A DNA stretch of 38,797 nucleotides from Heliophilum fasciatum (GTDB lineage Bacteria; Bacillota; Desulfitobacteriia; Heliobacteriales; Heliobacteriaceae): assembly GCF_004341395.1 (NCBI RefSeq), contig NZ_SLXT01000026.1, positions 1 to 38,797 on the forward strand, read 5' to 3'. Made by a program: the position numbers and the translations under genes. This document shows positions 11,793 through 35,153 of this stretch, one piece after another (positions within the stretch are counted from its first letter, which is position 1; each line of letters starts with the position of its first letter). The notes under the pieces are model-generated. The model did no database searches. It was given only the letters and a program-made list of their open reading frames with translations, and had not been told where the DNA came from.

Positions 11793-14700
11793 GTTGCAGT
11801 AGATGACCCGATGGATAGGGGATTGAAACGAAGAATCCATGGTTGATAAAATCAAACGCATCAATGGTTGCAGTAGATGACCCGATGGATAGGGGATTGA
11901 AACTTTAGGCGCAACCGTTGAAATGGACGGTCAGAAACGAGGTTGCAGTAGATGACCCGATGGATAGGGGATTGAAACTTGCAAACACTCTCCTTATTCT
12001 GCTTTGACACATAGTTGCAGTAGATGACCCGATGGATAGGGGATTGAAACTTGCACAATTGAATTCTTTCTTAGACGAAACCGGCGTCGTTGCAGTAGAT
12101 GACCCGATGGATAGGGGATTGAAACGCCGGACGTACCGCTTCCCGACTGGATTGAATTCGGTTGCAGTAGATGACCCGATGGATAGGGGATTGAAACTAG
12201 ATGGTCTGGTTTAGGCTCTCTATTTTAGCTAATGTTGCAGTAGATGACCCGATGGATAGGGGATTGAAACAACACTTCTTTGGCTCCCCGGTGATCCCTG
12301 ATGACCTGTTGCAGTAGATGACCCGATGGATAGGGGATTGAAACCACATTTTTGAATCACTTTCCAAATCCCCCTTTCGGTTGCAGTAGATGACCCGATG
12401 GATAGGGGATTGAAACATTAAAACAGATGAAGCATTTGTAATGCATATGTATCGTTGCAGTAGATGACCCGATGGATAGGGGATTGAAACGTATCTTCTT
12501 CTACAATTCCACCAATGATTTGCCCGGTTGCAGTAGATGACCCGATGGATAGGGGATTGAAACTTACTTATCCTTACTTACACCCAAACTTCTTCATCCG
12601 TTGCAGTAGATGACCCGATGGATAGGGGATTGAAACTTATCATAATTAACAACATATTCTGTTATTTCTACAGTTGCAGTAGATGACCCGATGGATAGGG
12701 GATTGAAACTTTGAAAGAACATTAAATGAAAACTTTAATCCATCAAGTTGCAGTAGATGACCCGATGGATAGGGGATTGAAACATTGAAAGAATGCCGAA
12801 TTTTTTAGCCAGCCATTTTACGTTGCAGTAGATGACCCGATGGATAGGGGATTGAAACGTTTGATTCCGCGTGGAATAGTTGCGGGAGTGTATCGTTGCA
12901 GTAGATGACCCGATGGATAGGGGATTGAAACTTGAATACCTTATCGATAACATTATTCATTTCTTCCAGTTGCAGTAGATGACCCGATGGATAGGGGATT
13001 GAAACTCATAAACTATTCGATAATATTCATTATTTTTTACAGTTGCAGTAGATGACCCGATGGATAGGGGATTGAAACTACTTAACAAATAAGCGTTTCT
13101 TTAATCGCCTTATAGTTGCAGTAGATGACCCGATGGATAGGGGATTGAAACCGCCTTTTACAATATCCAAGAATAAATAATAGTCAAGTTGCAGTAGATG
13201 ACCCGATGGATAGGGGATTGAAACTTTGTCCAATTTACTGTCTGTCCGCTATGGATTTTTGTTGCAGTAGATGACCCGATGGATAGGGGATTGAAACATG
13301 TTGTGTTCTTATGTTCTCTGTTTCTGTACCCATTGGTTGCAGTAGATGACCCGATGGATAGGGGATTGAAACAACTAATATCTCGCCTGCCACGTACAGC
13401 TATGGCGTTGCAGTAGATGACCCGATGGATAGGGGATTGAAACAACGGTTGCAGACCGTTACTGACCGTTGCCAACCGTCCGTTGCAGTAGATGACCCGA
13501 TGGATAGGGGATTGAAACCCCAAACCAATTCCAAAGCAATGGTCTGGGAAGTCCGGTTGCAGTAGATGACCCGATGGATAGGGGATTGAAACGTTAAATC
13601 ATTAATTAATTCTTCTGTTAATTTAAGTTGCAGTAGATGACCCGATGGATAGGGGATTGAAACACATCGGGATCGATGGTAGTAACTACAAGAAGTACGG
13701 GTTGCAGTAGATGACCCGATGGATAGGGGATTGAAACTGGCCTTTGACGGCCCCAAGCCCTTGATCATGCCGCTAGTTGCAGTAGATGACCCGATGGATA
13801 GGGGATTGAAACTGCGGAATCCGATGCTGACTTCTTTTTTGATGCCAGTAGTTGCAGTAGATGACCCGATGGATAGGGGATTGAAACTTAAAAAACAAGG
13901 ATTCTGGCATACATCCAGAATCGAAGTTGCAGTAGATGACCCGATGGATAGGGGATTGAAACCGAACACGACGTCACCGTCTTCACCTTGCGACGGATCG
14001 TTGCAGTAGATGACCCGATGGATAGGGGATTGAAACACAATACCGACAAACTTGCTGATTCCGTTAAAGAAAGTTGCAGTAGATGACCCGATGGATAGGG
14101 GATTGAAACAACAACTAATATAGTAGCGCAAGATTGCAAAATCATGTTGCAGTAGATGACCCGATGGATAGGGGATTGAAACGGACAAAGCCTTGAGCCA
14201 AGCCCAATATGTCGAACTCGTTGCAGTAGATGACCCGATGGATAGGGGATTGAAACACTGGTTTGGCTGAAAAGCGAAACGGCACCGTCGTCGAGTTGCA
14301 GTAGATGACCCGATGGATAGGGGATTGAAACACACTTCTTCGTCTAAGGCATCCAGCGTCTCCTGATGCGTTGCAGTAGATGACCCGATGGATAGGGGAT
14401 TGAAACGCTCCAACCCCGCGTCCACAACCTCGACCTTCGCGGTTGCAGTAGATGACCCGATGGATAGGGGATTGAAACCTGGCCTACTTATAACAATATC
14501 ATGGACAACGTGGTTTTTCGTGTTGCAGTAGATGACCCGATGGATAGGGGATTGAAACTCGTTCAGGGCTTGGATAGGATCTGCTTTTTCTTCGTTGCAG
14601 TAGATGACCCGATGGATAGGGGATTGAAACTTTCTTTTTCGCACTGCCGCTGCCAGTTATCTTGTTTTGTTGCAGTAGATGACCCGATGGATAGGGGATT

Positions 14701-26659: not shown

Positions 26660-26875
26660 AGGAGTAGGTAAAATAGTGATACGGTTGCTTTTCTTTTTAC
26701 TGGGGTGGGGTTGGTGCCCGCGGATACGGTTTGATAGTGGAGTATCTTGGCATTTTCGCAAGAGATGGTGGTTTTGAAGCGGTTTGGGGTGTTGCGAAAA
26801 ATGATTGGTTTTTTGGTGAGGGGGAAGGTCGGGGAAGCCTTGATTTAGCTGGGGTTTGGCGGAGGGATCGGTTGC
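26660..26875 (+). promoter_or_regulatory. Leader of CRISPR array 3
   Basis: Contains GGTAAAATA (26667-26675), the inverted repeat TTTTCGCAA (26753-26761) / TTGCGAAAA (26792-26800) with two G(G/C)GGTTT-type copies between the arms, and AAGCCTTGATTT (26835-26846) ending 29 bases before the first repeat. It is closest to the array 2 leader (GGTTTGGGGTGTTGCG is common to both), matching their shared repeat. Confidence 0.8.
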
Positions 26876-28534
26876 GTTGCAGTAGATGACCCGATGGATA
26901 GGGGATTGAAACGAATGTGATGTTGATTCTTCGGTAAACTGCCATTTCGTTGCAGTAGATGACCCGATGGATAGGGGATTGAAACTGGTTGTCACGGTTG
27001 GCAGCGGCGTTTCGATGGATGGTTGCAGTAGATGACCCGATGGATAGGGGATTGAAACGAATTAAGTAAGATACTAAAAACATGGAAAAGAAGAGGTTGC
27101 AGTAGATGACCCGATGGATAGGGGATTGAAACGATCGCTAAACGTGGGAAGCTGCTTCTTTGTCGATGTTGCAGTAGATGACCCGATGGATAGGGGATTG
27201 AAACAGTTGGAATTGACCATCGGGACGACGGTAACCGCAAGCTGTTGCAGTAGATGACCCGATGGATAGGGGATTGAAACAATCACCCCCTATGATATTT
27301 GATTCAGATAAGTGACAGTTGCAGTAGATGACCCGATGGATAGGGGATTGAAACTGGGCAAGGGATTCCTTTGGCGGGTATAATATGTTCTTGTTGCAGT
27401 AGATGACCCGATGGATAGGGGATTGAAACATACTGCATGGGGTTAGTAGCCCCAACAGTAGAATGGGTTGCAGTAGATGACCCGATGGATAGGGGATTGA
27501 AACTATCTTGTTCAACGAGGTAAGTTCAAAGACGTTAAAAGTTGCAGTAGATGACCCGATGGATAGGGGATTGAAACATGAATCTCACTCAGCTAGCAAA
27601 CATGCGTGAACAGTTGCAGTAGATGACCCGATGGATAGGGGATTGAAACCTAGTATCAACTTTTGCAAGCGAAATTAAATCGCCTTCGTTGCAGTAGATG
27701 ACCCGATGGATAGGGGATTGAAACCTTTGTGCCCTGCCGCTTCGAGAAGCGCTAATGCCGTTGCAGTAGATGACCCGATGGATAGGGGATTGAAACGGAG
27801 ACCGACAAGGGAATCACCGTCACCGTCAACAAGTTGCAGTAGATGACCCGATGGATAGGGGATTGAAACTTTTTACCGGGGAAGATTGTGGTGCAGCGGG
27901 GTTTTGGGTTGCAGTAGATGACCCGATGGATAGGGGATTGAAACCTTCTTTGAGCGCCGCCGGGACTTGAGCATATGTTTTGTTGCAGTAGATGACCCGA
28001 TGGATAGGGGATTGAAACGTCGCTTGGTTCACTATGAACACGATGGCCGATTGTACGTTGCAGTAGATGACCCGATGGATAGGGGATTGAAACTGCTTGA
28101 TGCACCGAGCATCGTCACCACTCAACCAGTTGCAGTAGATGACCCGATGGATAGGGGATTGAAACTTGCGCTGCTGTATCTCGCCTTGCTCGGCTAAGTC
28201 AAGTTGCAGTAGATGACCCGATGGATAGGGGATTGAAACCTTTACTTTCCTGCCTTGCTTGGCTGAACGACTTCGTTGCAGTAGATGACCCGATGGATAG
28301 GGGATTGAAACTGATAGTGGACTGCCTCTTTGCCAAAGTCGTTGTCATGTTGCAGTAGATGACCCGATGGATAGGGGATTGAAACCCCAAGGCTTCCCAC
28401 AAACGTATGTGATCGATCGCGATGTTGCAGTAGATGACCCGATGGATAGGGGATTGAAACAATCGCTTTGCTAAGGCATGATCGATTAAGGCTTGATGTT
28501 GCAGTAGATGACCCGATGGATAGGGGATTGAAAC
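26876..28534 (+). CRISPR. CRISPR array 3, leader-proximal part (23 repeats)
   Basis: Same 37-base repeat as array 2. 22 complete spacers of about 35-39 bases lie in this part. The spacer after the 23rd repeat (28498-28534) is split by an insertion sequence after six bases; the array continues at 29746. Together the two parts give 25 repeats and 24 spacers. Confidence 0.99.
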
Positions 28535-28548
28535 GAACTAATGCCCCA

Positions 28549-29609
28549 TCAGGCAACTTTTACCCGTTTTTGAAGGCGTAAAATCTCTTGAGATTTGGCA
28601 TTTTTATTTCGCCAGCGTAGGTAGGATTGAATCGCATCAGCTAACGCTGCATGATCAGGATAATCCGAGCCCGACAGCACAAAATGCCGTAAGGGCGCAA
28701 AGTGGCACTCGATCCGATTGAGCCACGATGAGTAGGTTGGTGTAAAGACAAGTTCCACGTTGTTTTGCTCGGCCCATTCACGAACAAGCTTCGTTTTGTG
28801 GGGCGAAAAGTTATCAAGAATGATATACAACCGTTCGGAACGATGAAACCGACGTCGTAGTACCTTGAGGAACGCAAGAAACTCTTTACTGGTTTTTCGT
28901 AAGTGATTATGCCCATAAAGCTTATCACCCTTGAGATCATAGGCAGCCAAAAGATGTCGAACCCCGTGCGTTCGACTGTAATCGGCGCGACGGCGCTGGG
29001 GTTTTCCTTTTGGAAACCAGCCTTTGCCGGGATATGGTCGGATCTCCAGTGGACCAAATTCGTCCACGCAAACTACACGTCCGTCGGTGGGTGGCGTTTG
29101 GTAGAGCGATTCGATGCGTTTTTTTTAACCTCAAACTCAGGATCTTTCGAACTTTTCCATGTTTTCGTGTTCTGATAGGTGATATTGGCCTTATCAAGAA
29201 TGACACGTACGGTTTCGGCAGTGATGGTCTTCACAATGCCTTTTTGCACAGCAGCGTTGGCCAGCTTGCTTAAGGACCATTGGGTGAATGGCATACCCGC
29301 AGCACGAGGCGGCATTTGAGCAAGTTGGATGATCATACTCCGTTGTTCCTCGGTAAATGTCGGTTTACGCCCGCCGCCGTAGTTAGGTTTTAATGAATCC
29401 CATCCGATTTTATTAAATTGATGAAGTACATCGCGAACATGATCTTCGCCACACTGATAGGATCGAGCGATTTCAGGCACTTTCATTTTTTGCGCCGAGG
29501 CAAGCAGAATCAAGGCACGCCGCATCGCAAACGATGTAGAGCCTCGGCGAGTAAGATGCAGTAGCTTATTTCCTTCTTCTTGGGTTAGTTCCCGTACGTA
29601 TACACACAT
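28549..29609 (-). CDS. IS630-family transposase, expressed through a -1 frameshift
   Basis: Two overlapping frames. The front (29609 to 29073; ATG 29609 chosen because GGAGG lies 8 nt upstream) has winged-helix/HTH features (SFAMRRALILLASAQKMKV, VRDVLHQFNKIGWDSL, GGGRKPTFTEEQ) and ends at a TAG. The back (to 28549) carries the DDE core: VVCVDEFGPL, YIILDNFSPHK, and SSWLNRIECHF with the glutamate. A slip back by one at the eight-A run (29119-29126 on the plus strand) joins them into DPEFEVKKKRIESLYQ, continuing smoothly to VDEFGP. Total about 353 residues, a normal IS630 length. The stop codon overlaps the left inverted repeat. Frameshift could be programmed or a mutation. Confidence 0.88.
29119..29126 (-). 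other. A8 slippery site in the transposase
   Basis: Eight consecutive A on the coding (minus) strand, in context GTT AAA AAA AAC. A -1 shift fuses the HTH and DDE frames. This is the only sequence in the overlap suited to slippage. Confidence 0.7.
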
Positions 29610-29745
29610 GGCCATCGCCTCCACCCATTCCTTTCGGCAGAGGGATGCTAAATTCCTTTAAATGTTAATTATTCCCACTAATTTTTCTAGGCTAACGTTC
29701 TCTGATGGGGCACTAAATTAGTCTCACCAATCATTCAGAACTCCC

Positions 29746-29870: not shown

Positions 29871-29906
29871 AAAGGGACTTCCAATTCATTGGAAGCCCCT
29901 TTTACT
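29871..29906. terminator. Terminator between array 3 and the minus-strand gene
   Basis: Hairpin AAAGGGACTTCCAA (29871-29884), loop TTCA, TTGGAAGCCCCTTT (29889-29902), one A-C mismatch, with T-rich sequence on the right and A-rich sequence on the left. It ends array 3 and can also serve the convergent gene whose stop is at 29909. Confidence 0.8.
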
Positions 29907-29908
29907 TT

Positions 29909-30859
29909 TTAGTACCTGAATGTGAGTTGAAAAATGAACGGAGAAAACTGCGTGGTTTCTTTATTGTTTTTCAAAAACAAATCATAAGAAAAGAGTGCGG
30001 CCAGGTGAGCGATGCTGTGCCACACCTTCACACAGTTTTTTAAGGAATCCCTGTCATAAGAAGCTTCTAACAGGTCGGGAAAACCTTGCGCGGCTACTAG
30101 CATGTTTTTTTCGATCGTTGCTTCAGATACCATTTGGCATAGGGTTTTATAAATACTATCGTAGTTTTTCCAGGAATCCATATCGCTTACAGTTAACAAG
30201 GGTTTGCTGGAAATCTGGTTGCCAGAGGAGTCTGTGTTTATTAGTTTCCTTACCTTTGTAAGCTTGTCCTTTACAGGGAGATGAGGGTAGTTTACGTCCA
30301 ACGTATAATAGTAATAAAGATTTTCCAAGATGGTTTTTAATTCTTGATTCACCGTATCATATTGTCCGTACAACAAACTGTAGGCTAACCAGTTAAGCTT
30401 GTCTGATATCGAAGACATGTAGCAATAAAGGGTACATGAATTTAACAAGCCGGCATCCATTAGGTCATCACCAAGCAGGTGCAAAAAACTTCCAGACCAG
30501 TTGAGGTAGAAGTTTTGTATAAAGACGATTTCCCGTTTGACCTCTGGATCGATCATGGTATCTACGTATATTTCGCAATAATAGGGATGCATTCCAGGGT
30601 ATTTATCGATAATCTTCGCGATTTCTTGCCCTTTTTCGTTCAAAACAAGGGTCTTTTCCTGTTCATTATAGTGAAAGGCATCGTGGTATTTCTTGAGGAC
30701 GTTTTTAATGACAAGGGGATACTTTTTAGATATGTCATCGACATGAAGGCCCGGATTATCATAGATATCTTTGAAAAAATACATGTACACGATGGATCCC
30801 TCCCGATTGATACATAAATAGTCCTTGCCCCTACCAATGTTTGTAACAAAGTATGTCAC
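29909..30859 (-). CDS. Protein of unknown function divergent from the DUF4435 operon
   Basis: 316 residues from GTG 30859; no clear ribosome binding site, so the start is unsure. I recognise no family. Residues about 25-80 (IYDNPGLHVDDISKKYPLVI, then LVLNEKGQEIAKII) could be a winged-helix domain. The rest is helical and tyrosine-rich, and near the C-terminus KVWHSIAHLAALFSYDLF resembles the R-x4-H helix of HEPN proteins but lacks the arginine (inference). No membrane segment or signal peptide seen. It shares the 179-base intergenic region with the divergent operon, so it may be its regulator or partner. Confidence 0.7.
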   Translation of the reverse strand: MTYFVTNIGRGKDYLCINREGSIVYMYFFKDIYDNPGLHVDDISKKYPLVIKNVLKKYHDAFHYNEQEKTLVLNEKGQEIAKIIDKYPGMHPYYCEIYVDTMIDPEVKREIVFIQNFYLNWSGSFLHLLGDDLMDAGLLNSCTLYCYMSSISDKLNWLAYSLLYGQYDTVNQELKTILENLYYYYTLDVNYPHLPVKDKLTKVRKLINTDSSGNQISSKPLLTVSDMDSWKNYDSIYKTLCQMVSEATIEKNMLVAAQGFPDLLEASYDRDSLKNCVKVWHSIAHLAALFSYDLFLKNNKETTQFSPFIFQLTFRY

Positions 30860-31038
30860 GGTATGTCACAGTGGCTTACTTCGTCAGACTTTCACGAAAG
30901 CGGCTTCCATGGAAAGAGCATTGGAGGCTTTTGCTTATATTTTAAGTGAATTGTAATTCCCTGTGAATGAGAAAAGGGAGGAATCCCCCTGTTTTTGTAG
31001 AAAATAAATGAAATTATTTTACTATAGGGGGGTTCTTT
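30860..31038. other. Divergent intergenic region
   Basis: A tandem GTATGTCAC repeat (30851-30869) overlaps the minus-strand start. A small hairpin-like GGGAGGAATCCCCC lies near 30976. A/T-rich sequence with a TACTAT -10-like element precedes the AGGGGGG ribosome binding site of the DUF4435 gene. Promoters for both directions must lie here, but I cannot place them firmly. Confidence 0.4.
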
Positions 31039-31923
31039 TTGCGCCAACATCTAAAAAAAGAGCGGATATGCACAAAAGTGATCCTTTTGCGATCTCAACA
31101 TCCAAATAAATTATTTTTTCTGGTTGAAGGGGTTACGGACTCACGCTTTTATAGAAAGTTTGTGGATGGCCAAAGCTGTCACTTTGTAATCGGGGAGAGC
31201 AAAAGCAGTGTCCTTCAAGCCGTCGACACACTGGAAAAAGTAAAAGGCATCGATGCGGTAGCTGTTGTTGACTTGGATTATGATTTTGAAGAAAAAGCGT
31301 ATAACAAGCGAACGAATCTTTTCTATACAGATGGTCATGATCAGGAAATAATGCTCTTAAATTCCCCCGCTTTGAACAGTATCTTAATTGAATACGGTGA
31401 CCAAGAAAAAATCGCAATCATCGAAAAACAAACAGGAAATATTGTTAGCCAACTTGTCAAAGAGGCCGCTCTTCAAGTGGGATATCTCCGTTGGTATTCC
31501 CGTGAGGAAGAGCTTTCTTTGCGTTTCGATGGCCTTGACTTTTCTGCCTTTGTTTCTTCAGAAGACTTATCTGTGGATACAACCAAAATGATTCAAGCGG
31601 TTCGGGAGAACAGCTATCGGCCAGGATATGTGTCTGAAATAAATTTTTCCAATTGGAAAGCGAAGATGATGCAAAAGGGGATTTGCCCCTGGCTAATATG
31701 TTGTGGTCATGATGCTGTAAAAATATTGTTAATCGGCTTGAAGAGTATTTTCGGTTCTTATAACGCCCGTCATTTGCGTGAAGCAGCATTAGAAAGCGAT
31801 TTGCGTCTCGCCTATACGATTCATAATTTTGCGCAGACGGAGCTGTACCAAAATTTACTGCGTTGGGATGAGGAAAAGCGCAGATTTCTGATACGTGTCG
31901 GCCAAGCAAAAGAAGCCGTTTGA
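31039..31923 (+). CDS. DUF4435 / TOPRIM-like protein (AriB-like)
   Basis: 294 residues from TTG 31039, with AGGGGGG 6 nt upstream. Residues 24-40 (KLFFLVEGVTDSRFYRKF) and 74-82 (VAVVDLDYD) form the TOPRIM signature: glutamate E30 and the DxD pair D78/D80. This matches DUF4435, the fold of AriB, the toxic nuclease subunit of the PARIS anti-phage system (family knowledge). Length is close to AriB. It is followed after 38 bases by an ABC/SMC-like ATPase, the usual partner, but here the order is TOPRIM first, the reverse of the AriA-AriB order I know. Confidence 0.8.
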   Translation: MRQHLKKERICTKVILLRSQHPNKLFFLVEGVTDSRFYRKFVDGQSCHFVIGESKSSVLQAVDTLEKVKGIDAVAVVDLDYDFEEKAYNKRTNLFYTDGHDQEIMLLNSPALNSILIEYGDQEKIAIIEKQTGNIVSQLVKEAALQVGYLRWYSREEELSLRFDGLDFSAFVSSEDLSVDTTKMIQAVRENSYRPGYVSEINFSNWKAKMMQKGICPWLICCGHDAVKILLIGLKSIFGSYNARHLREAALESDLRLAYTIHNFAQTELYQNLLRWDEEKRRFLIRVGQAKEAV

Positions 31924-31961
31924 AATAGCGAATTTAACGATGAAGGTGGCTAGGGTTTCAT

Positions 31962-33299
31962 ATGAAGATTCAAAACCTATGGGTTGAAGGCCTTTTCGGC
32001 GAACATAATTACGAAGTTCCGCTTCATGAGTCGGGGATTACCGTCATTCATGCACCCAATGGACTCGGAAAGACGACGCTGCTGCGGTTGATCGATGGAG
32101 CACTGAACGGCCGTTTTTTTGAGCTACAAAAAATCCAGTTTGAGAAACTTGGGTTCTTATTTTCGGATGGCTCACGACTTTGTGTTTGTAAAGAACGTAA
32201 GGAACCGATGAAAATCGGAGAACAGGGACTGAAAAATATCTATTATGAGTTCCTTGATGCACAAGGGACTCCATATGAGTTTAAGCCTGAACATAAAGTA
32301 AGCTGGAATTATCCCTTAGGGCTGGTTGATGATCAATTACCTTTCCTGGAAAGAGTCGGTCCTGAGCTTTGGGAGCATAGAGAGACGGGTGAATATCTCG
32401 ATTATAAAGATGTGCTCAAAAAGTATGGAAATCGCCTTCCCATGGCGGCCGAATATGACTGGCCGGATTGGTTGAAGAAGATCCGTCGTCAATTGCCTGT
32501 TCACTTTATCAGTGCCCATCGGCTTTTAAAAGCGCCCTATGAGTTGAAAAGCGAAATTCACGGAGCAGAGCGGTTAGTGCCGGCAGTGCGTTATTTTTCT
32601 GAGCAACTGGTCAAAACCTTTCGGGCCAAGCTTGCAGCTTCAGCCGATATCAATCAAGCGTTGGATCGCTCCTTCCCCAGTCGTCTTGTTACTGAGGCAT
32701 CGAAAGAAATGCATGACAGTTCATGGTCGCAAGATTACTTGGAAAACAAATTGAATGATTTAGCCCATCAGCGTGCGCGATTGGCCCATGTAGGCCTGTT
32801 GGACACAGCCGATGCAGGTCCGCCGATCGGTAAAGTAGCCCTTGATGAATTCACTTGTCGTGTTCTCAATTTATATATAGAAGACATGGAGAAGAAACTG
32901 GCGGTTTTCTATGACCTGGAACGACGCTTAAATATGTTCCTGGCTTTAGTGAACTCCAAGTTTCAGCATAAGGAATTAGTTATCGATCGGGAGAAAGGCT
33001 TCGTCATTCAAAAGAGTAACTCTGGTCAATTCTTGCCGGTAGACAGCCTCTCTTCGGGCGAACAGCACCTGCTTGTCCTCTATTATCAACTGCTTTTCCG
33101 GGAGGAGCCCAATGAACTCGTCTTAATTGATGAGCCGGAACTATCGCTGCACATCGCTTGGCAAGGAGAGTTTCTCGATGACTTGTATCAGATACATCGC
33201 TTGAACGGTATTTCCGTAGTATTAGCCACTCATTCACCAGATATCATTGACGGGGAGTGGGAGTTGACAGTTGAGTTGGAGCAAAAATCTAATCGATGA
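31962..33299 (+). CDS. ABC/SMC-like AAA ATPase (AriA-like)
   Basis: 445 residues from ATG 31962 (GAAGGTGG upstream). Walker A HAPNGLGKTTLLRL at residues 30-43, ABC signature SLSSGEQHLLVLYYQ, Walker B ELVLIDEPELSLH, and the switch histidine in VVLATHSPDII near the C-terminus. There is a long helical insert between the two halves. This is the AAA_15/AAA_21 architecture of OLD, Gabija-like and AriA ATPases. With DUF4435 next to it, the closest model is AriA, a sensor ATPase that holds its TOPRIM partner inactive. The cyclase gene starts 9 bases after the stop, so the three are one operon. Confidence 0.85.
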   Translation: MKIQNLWVEGLFGEHNYEVPLHESGITVIHAPNGLGKTTLLRLIDGALNGRFFELQKIQFEKLGFLFSDGSRLCVCKERKEPMKIGEQGLKNIYYEFLDAQGTPYEFKPEHKVSWNYPLGLVDDQLPFLERVGPELWEHRETGEYLDYKDVLKKYGNRLPMAAEYDWPDWLKKIRRQLPVHFISAHRLLKAPYELKSEIHGAERLVPAVRYFSEQLVKTFRAKLAASADINQALDRSFPSRLVTEASKEMHDSSWSQDYLENKLNDLAHQRARLAHVGLLDTADAGPPIGKVALDEFTCRVLNLYIEDMEKKLAVFYDLERRLNMFLALVNSKFQHKELVIDREKGFVIQKSNSGQFLPVDSLSSGEQHLLVLYYQLLFREEPNELVLIDEPELSLHIAWQGEFLDDLYQIHRLNGISVVLATHSPDIIDGEWELTVELEQKSNR

Positions 33300-33308
33300 G
33301 AAGATGAG

Positions 33309-34763
33309 GTGATTCCTATTAAAGAACAGTTAATATTTGGGTATATCGCGTTTTCTGACTTAAAGGGCTTTTCGTCTCTGAATCCTGAGGAATTGAAAAA
33401 ATATCATGAAATCCTGTTGCCTAAGTTAGGTGAAGTTTTGGGCGGTTTAATAAAAAAGGCCATAGTCTATAACACTTGGGGAGATGCATTGTTTACAGTA
33501 TTTGAATCGGCGAAAGAGGCCACTGAATTTACCCTGCAATACCGTGATTTTTTTGAAAAGGAAGACATCACTATCCGCCCACGAATTAGTTTGCATTATG
33601 GTGAAGTTTCGGTTTTCAACGACCCGATTTTAGGGCGTACGAATGCCGTTGGAGAAAACATAAATTTGACAGCTCGAATTGAACCGGTCACCTTACCCGG
33701 TGAGATTTTTATATCTAAAGATGCCTATGATCAACTCATTATTATGTGTCCGCATTTGCGCTATGATCGGTTGGAATCGATTAAATTACCCAAAGATGCA
33801 GGCACAATCGATCTCTATTGGATGCGCCGCCACGAAGAAGTGGCGATGGGAAAAGAGTCGCCGAAAGAGCGGTTATATAGATTGCGCGATGATATTCGGT
33901 ACTTTGAAAAGGAATTAAAGCAAACGCTGATCCCCCGATTTTTTGCTGAAGACGTACCTTCGATTGTGGAAATCGATACGGCGCAGATCGGTAAATTTAT
34001 CGAGAATAAGAGTGCCTTTGAATTAGTTTGCTATGCTAATAAGTTAATGAATTCCGGCGATTATTTGAATGCCCTGGCCTGTGCAGACGCAGTAGAGAGC
34101 AGCGTAGAAAAAGTATTTGACTGTACCGTTCGTCCTTATGAAGGCAAGATGGCAGAAGTTCGCATCACCTGTCTATCTCATTTAGGTAGGTATGATGAAG
34201 CGGCCCAACTCGCTTTGCGGCTAATGGATAGAGATACCGCTAATTTTGAGCCCATTTGTTTACTTGCCGATCAGATTAAGAAAAAAGCACTAGCTCCATT
34301 GGAAGATGGCGTATCTTCTTGGTATGACATTGAAGACGATATTGAAAAATACAAGGCATTAAAACATGCCCGTTACTTATATCAATTTGCTTCACGTCGG
34401 GCCGGGGAGCATGCCTATTATCCTTTGATTAATTTTGCTTATCTTTCTGCTATGTTGGATCCGCTGGAACCCTCCGATGTAGCTGCATACATACTCCATG
34501 AATATAATCATTTACGGGGACGCCATTGGTGGGTTGATATTACGTTAGCAGAAGCGGCTATGCTCATGGAAGATTATACGGATGCCTTAGAGCGAGTGGC
34601 CAATGCCATTAAAATACACCAGCCCGATCCCAAAAAATTAGACATCGTGAGCAGGGATATTCGCTTGTATATAAAGGCTTTGCAAGAGCGGGATTTGAAT
34701 TTGGAACGTAATGTTCGGCCGATTCTGGCGGCAATCAATGAAGGGCTGAATTGTATTAAATAA
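33309..34763 (+). CDS. Class III nucleotidyl cyclase domain with C-terminal TPR-like region
   Basis: 484 residues. Residues 8-170 are a class III cyclase: metal aspartates D17 (FSDLKGFSS) and D59 ([14 protein letters not shown]), RISLHYGEV, and [18 protein letters not shown] with N119 and R123 in transition-state positions. All catalytic residues I can place are present, so it should be active; whether the product is cAMP, cGMP, cCMP or cUMP cannot be read. Residues 230-484 are helical repeats ([37 protein letters not shown]), TPR-like. No membrane segment. GTG 33309 chosen; the ribosome binding site is weak, and ATT 33318 lies better behind GAGGTG. Nine bases after the ATPase, so co-transcribed. 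Confidence 0.8.
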
Positions 34764-34765
34764 CT

Positions 34766-34900
34766 CTTCTGCGGAACCCCTCTTTTAGCCGTATTGGCTA
34801 CGAGTTTTTGCCCTTTTTACGGCTAGGTGAATGGATTCATGTCGGGAAAGGAACCGTCTTTGGCATGGGACGTATGCGAATTGCCGTTGTGGGGAAATGA
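34766..34900 (+). pseudogene. C-terminal remnant of a second cas6
   Basis: An open stretch of about 44 codons ending in TGA at 34898 encodes [20 protein letters not shown] followed by [14 protein letters not shown]. This is the C-terminal glycine-rich RNA-binding loop of Cas6; the intact Cas6 at 21434 has LPLFVWGQLTHVGKATSFGL in the same place. There is no start codon or N-terminal part: the sequence upstream belongs to the cyclase gene. It sits directly before the array 4 leader, as the intact cas6 (plus the RHH gene) sits before the relic leader. Confidence 0.85.
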
Positions 34901-34929: not shown

Positions 34930-35153
34930 GTATGGAATGGGTAGAATATTGACGTGAGCTTATTTGAATCCCCAGTTAGGGATACGACGAGGGATAGCAA
35001 GGCTGGATTCCAGCTGGATGATTCTAGCATTTTCGCAAGGGATGGCGGTTTTTTAACGGTTTGATGCCTTGCGAAAAATCGTCGGTATTTGGACGGTGCA
35101 GTAAAGCCGGAAAGCCTTGATTTTGCTGGGTTTTTTGTTTGAGTACAGTTGCG
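34930..35153 (+). promoter_or_regulatory. Leader of CRISPR array 4
   Basis: GGTAGAATA (34940-34948), the best-preserved inverted repeat TTTTCGCAAGG (35030-35040) / CCTTGCGAAAA (35067-35077), and AAGCCTTGATTT (35112-35123) ending 30 bases before the first repeat. Between the arms, GCGGTTTTTTAACGGTTTG carries two CGGTTT copies 11 bases apart. Confidence 0.8.

Follow-up and report, generated by a model that had tools for sequence, protein, structure and literature searches.

Gene content and surroundings of the locus

The window analysed here is a 38,797-nucleotide stretch of Heliophilum fasciatum DNA (contig NZ_SLXT01000026.1). It contains three adjacent plus-strand genes, encoding an AriB-like DUF4435/TOPRIM protein, an AriA-like ATPase and a class III nucleotide cyclase with a TPR-S region (Table 1). 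The open reading frame coordinates confirmed the co-directional arrangement described in the initial annotation: over positions 31039–34763 the genes are separated by 38 and 9 bp. The junction between ATPase and cyclase showed no terminator-like site, and the 9-bp spacing on a common strand points to co-expression; the cyclase gene is probably co-transcribed with the AriB-AriA pair. The motif sets across the DUF4435, ATPase and cyclase proteins are far beyond chance.

Table 1 Positions of genes, domains and neighbouring features in the window
Feature	Position	Strand	Description
AriB-like DUF4435/TOPRIM protein	31039..31923	+	294 aa, TTG start; Pfam, PADLOC and fold match, invariant E30/D78/D80
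AriA-like AAA/ABC ATPase	31962..33299	+	445 aa; AAA_21, PADLOC AriA, PDB AriA sequence match, motifs
Class III nucleotide cyclase fused to TPR-S region	33309..34763	+	484 aa, GTG start; divergent cyclase-TPR-S family member
Cyclase catalytic domain	33324..33845	+	Residues 6-179 in predicted model; metal Asp D17, D59; R123
All-helical TPR-S region	33978..34757	+	Residues 224-483 in predicted model; Pfam TPR-S at residues 271-379
316-aa ORF	29909..30859	-	Divergent from the DUF4435 gene
First CRISPR array	26876..about 29860		Interrupted by transposase-like gene
Second CRISPR array	35154 onwards		
Leader-like stretch	26738..26857		Candidate CRISPR leader
Leader-like stretch	35015..35134		Candidate CRISPR leader
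Transposase-like gene	28549..29624	-	Two ORFs (172 and 183 aa)

As also proposed from the initial reading, CRISPR arrays were found on both sides of the genes. The two leader-like stretches are 73% alike, and their position suggests that they are CRISPR leaders. The first array is broken by the transposase-like gene, with repeats near 28494 and 29742 on either side of it, and the second ORF of this gene has winged-HTH matches. Well upstream of the first array, starting at 11793, its repeat recurs in further exact copies. Spacers from the window arrays have no 14-mer in common with positions 29900–34800. The 316-aa ORF gave no significant Pfam, PADLOC or NCBIfam match and lies on the opposite strand, and it was set aside as a candidate partner.

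The AriB-AriA pair

The first protein matches Pfam DUF4435 (52.0 bits, E=1.1e-13), and its best PADLOC model is AriB (E=3.5e-22). Its predicted structure (pLDDT 85.9) was compared with the PDB, where only two folds had E<0.001, both of them AriB from AriA-AriB complexes (8v46_D and 8ux9_A; E about 1e-4, prob 1.00, TM about 0.5). The structural alignment with solved AriB shows only about 16% identity, and direct sequence searches of the PDB with the window protein or a 10-sequence profile gave no match to AriB, so that the assignment rests on profile and fold. The TOPRIM residues E30, D78 and D80, earlier noted as intact, are present and invariant in sets of 10 and 16 aligned DUF4435 proteins.

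The second protein matches AAA_21 (73.1 bits) and AAA_15 (58.2 bits). AriA is both its best PADLOC model (E=3.5e-28) and its best sequence match among solved structures in the PDB (E=3e-21). The Walker A motif, LSSGE signature, DEPE Walker B motif and switch His do not vary among 10 ATPases, in agreement with the initial description of an intact ABC-type site. Apart from the ATPase domain, Pfam revealed no nucleotide-binding domain in AriA or AriB.

The published PARIS rule calls for AAA_15 of at least 32 bits or AAA_21 of at least 27 bits, together with DUF4435 of at least 27 bits (PMC9122126), and the scores of the window pair lie above these thresholds. Like PARIS, the pair consists of two adjacent genes, with an AriB fold bearing the TOPRIM Glu/Asp residues and an AriA-type ABC ATPase with its motifs. 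The earlier suggestion of a PARIS-like pair is thus borne out by the Pfam thresholds, the PADLOC AriB and AriA models, the PDB match to AriA and the AriB fold. The logic of an ATPase with a TOPRIM protein is also common to OLD, Gabija and PtuA, but these systems match the window pair less well than AriA and AriB do.

The window departs from PARIS in its gene order, with AriB preceding AriA, and in the additional cyclase gene downstream. The order AriA then AriB is common in PARIS, although it is not part of the published rule. Comparison pairs were drawn from viral contigs, plasmids and genomes of the phylum, and AriA preceded AriB in 47 of these 48 adjacent ATPase-DUF4435 pairs, some of which are near-duplicates and hence not independent events. 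The single exception came from a genome of the window's family (G279), and a second genome of this family, additional to the 48 (G401), likewise has AriB first. The two genomes carry an orthologous AriB-AriA pair between similar flanking genes. In both, the ATPase gene is followed by an ORF of 111 aa, similar between the two (L089:6456-6791 and L232:7665-8000).

The cyclase-TPR-S protein and its relatives

The third protein matches Pfam TPR-S with 34.6 bits (E=3e-8, cut-off 27.6), so that its TPR region corresponds to a named domain, and Guanylate_cyc with 19.7 bits, just below the cut-off of 21.9. The fold is clear though the Pfam match is weak: every one of the 50 top PDB matches listed for the predicted cyclase model is a class III cyclase or includes the catalytic domain of one, confirming at the level of the model that this is a class III cyclase. 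The initial annotation, which saw a class III cyclase joined to a TPR region and linked it to defence signalling, is upheld. The cyclase residues that it listed as intact are all present; D17, D59 and R123 are invariant in 12 cyclases together with F15, N55 and W57, and N119 is frequent without being invariant.

By spacing, F15 (-2 from D17) and N55/W57 (-4/-2 from D59) occupy substrate-selecting positions. In class III cyclases, position -4 is usually Lys (ATP) or Glu (GTP), and the Asn assigned to this position makes a non-standard substrate possible. The window cyclase shares with Pycsar both metal-binding Asp residues of a class III cyclase, D17 and D59, and resembles EaPycC in carrying an aromatic residue two positions before the first of these. 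In EaPycC, a CTP cyclase, F100 and R142/Q144 stand at the matching positions, with D102/D146 as the metal Asp residues (PMC11224242).

Differences from Pycsar include the TPR-S C-terminus and the Asn/Trp at -4/-2 before the second metal Asp; the PADLOC match to PycC is weak (E=6.5e-4, over 74 residues). The window locus also differs in having no PycTM or PycTIR gene: the neighbours of the cyclase are AriA, AriB and the family-less ORF. A genome search found no PycTM, and the one TIR_2 match in the window genome is a TIR-Sel1 protein on another contig (C42, G000:C42:9798-11633; L100:6799-8634), unlinked to the cyclase. The cyclase has a branch length of 2.73, compared with a median of 0.46, and no settled place in the tree; a long branch with retained catalytic residues is compatible with a change of partner or with fast drift.

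Relatives were collected from a scan of genome contigs (best 80 of 220), a plasmid search and whole genomes of the phylum, giving 14 other cyclase-TPR-S loci (L005, L007-L018 and L002/L090). L003, from genome G309, was judged from the match, among other things, to be the same contig as L010 and was counted once; the cyclase-TPR-S gene of L018 is interrupted. The distribution is patchy: among 397 other genomes searched in the phylum, three gave a match, one of which was weak. A scan of viral contigs found no relative of the window cyclase.

As in Pycsar, PycTM or TIR genes are often found beside this family in other genomes. TIR, RyR or PycTM genes were nearby in 10 of the 14 loci (scan part, best 80 of 220), mostly adjoining and on the same strand, compared with four of the 68 loci that encode other class III cyclases in the same scan, a comparison that favours the cyclase-TPR-S group because the query set was drawn from the same loci. 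Independent Pfam assignments agreed for the proteins scanned. In genome G303, the cyclase has no recognised effector adjoining it.

The order cyclase-TPR-S, RyR, TIR is repeated at five loci from Syntrophomonadaceae and relatives (L009, L010, L011, L012 and L015), where the TIR protein carries a beta-helix in those scanned. The two-domain cyclase of this operon is about 31–33% identical to that of the window. There, RyR and TIR follow the cyclase, whereas in the window AriB-AriA precede it and a CRISPR leader-like stretch follows. In Cohnella lubricantis (L007:2984-10563), type I restriction genes are followed by a ThsB-like TIR, cyclase-TPR-S and another TIR. Three more loci (L117-L119) encode strong TPR-S matches with a different N-terminal part, two of the three weakly matching the cyclase-TPR-S profile, and a further small same-strand ORF adjoins each TPR-S gene. 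In the literature searched, we found no description of cyclase-TPR-S arranged with RyR, TIR or PycTM, and nothing relevant on TPR-S with DUF4435, on TPR-S in conflict systems or on the TPR-S domain by itself.

Relationship between the pair and the cyclase

The initial annotation had proposed the three genes as a candidate defence operon and knew of no described system that joins all three. On the latter point, the literature searched likewise yielded no such paper. Nine genomes of the window's family, searched with the ATPase and the cyclase, gave no second triplet. No cyclase was found near the other ATPase-DUF4435 pairs (0/48, with flanks of up to about 5 kb, shrinking to a few hundred bases where contigs end) or near the pair of G401, and neither ATPase nor DUF4435 was found in the flanking sequence examined at the other cyclase-TPR-S loci (0/14; scan part, best 80 of 220). 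The whole genomes of G279 and G401 contain no cyclase, though they hold the nearest relatives of the window pair. Within the samples searched, pairs in other genomes were never next to this cyclase, the outcome that the initial annotation had named as refuting its three-gene idea. What looks like an ordinary PARIS pair in reversed order, and a fast-evolving cyclase whose relatives lie beside quite different defence genes, leave the three-part system not supported; absence from these samples is not proof of absence.

We consider it probable that the locus combines a self-sufficient PARIS pair in reversed order with a Pycsar-like cyclase that is divergent and separate from it; the three genes probably share one transcript. 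In published PARIS systems, an AriA hexamer holds AriB until a phage trigger frees it, and AriB then cuts tRNA (PMC12409363; PMC11455837). In analogy to that work, the first two genes would constitute a PARIS-type abortive-infection module of the AriB-AriA lineage, in which the AriA-like ATPase complex would keep the AriB-like TOPRIM nuclease inactive, followed by binding of a phage protein to AriA, release of AriB, and cleavage of tRNA, stopping translation. The present analysis supplies the family assignment, catalytic residues and fold, while these mechanistic steps are carried over from PARIS. The cyclase-TPR-S protein would be a separate signalling enzyme, in which TPR-S most likely senses infection and the cyclase makes a cyclic-nucleotide alarm signal, a role suggested by the TIR, RyR or PycTM genes that accompany the family elsewhere. 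Its effector, for which no candidate was recognised at the locus, may be encoded elsewhere in the genome. Points against this reading are the co-expression suggested by the ATPase-cyclase junction, the lack of a known effector beside the cyclase, of PycTM in the genome and of a TIR gene on the same contig, and the failure of simple PDB sequence searches to recover AriB.

Alternatively, the cyclase-TPR-S protein could sense infection and gate AriA-AriB through its product or as a protein, with AriB-AriA in place of the usual TIR, RyR or PycTM effectors. The tight junction with the ATPase gene, where no terminator was found, and the retained catalytic residues are compatible with such a hybrid, the long branch would be expected after a change of partner, and the lack of any other effector near the window cyclase keeps the idea alive. 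We nevertheless regard it as unlikely, given that no second example exists among the 48 pairs, G401 or the 14 cyclases (scan part, best 80 of 220), that two genomes retain the closest relatives of the pair with similar genes on either side and no cyclase, and that Pfam recognised no nucleotide-binding domain in AriA or AriB besides the ATPase. The specific route from TPR-S sensing through a cyclic nucleotide to release or activation of AriB, a second-messenger input besides the PARIS protein trigger, seems improbable as well. Were the hybrid true, a nucleotide signal would feed into PARIS, and two defence logics that have until now been described separately would be joined.

It also appears unlikely that the cyclase works together with an effector encoded elsewhere, for example the TIR-Sel1 protein of contig C42, its place behind ariA being due to chance in a defence island. 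The company of TIR, RyR or PycTM genes in 10 of 14 relatives (scan part, best 80 of 220), the existence of one TIR-Sel1 protein in the window genome and the G303 cyclase that likewise lacks a recognised effector alongside fit this possibility, but that protein is encoded at an unlinked site and carries Sel1 repeats, in contrast to the beta-helix partners of the family. That the cyclase serves signalling outside defence and was brought in by chance is very unlikely: although no TIR, RyR or PycTM match lies close to four of the 14 relatives (scan part, best 80 of 220), most are found with defence-type genes, one (L007) lies beside type I restriction genes, and the family is patchily distributed in the phylum.

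If the favoured reading, a reversed-order PARIS pair with a separate cyclase, is correct, known defence families would be extended by a PARIS lineage with reversed gene order and by a divergent protein of the cyclase-TPR-S type, and the locus would point to a recurring arrangement of cyclase-TPR-S with RyR, TIR or PycTM.
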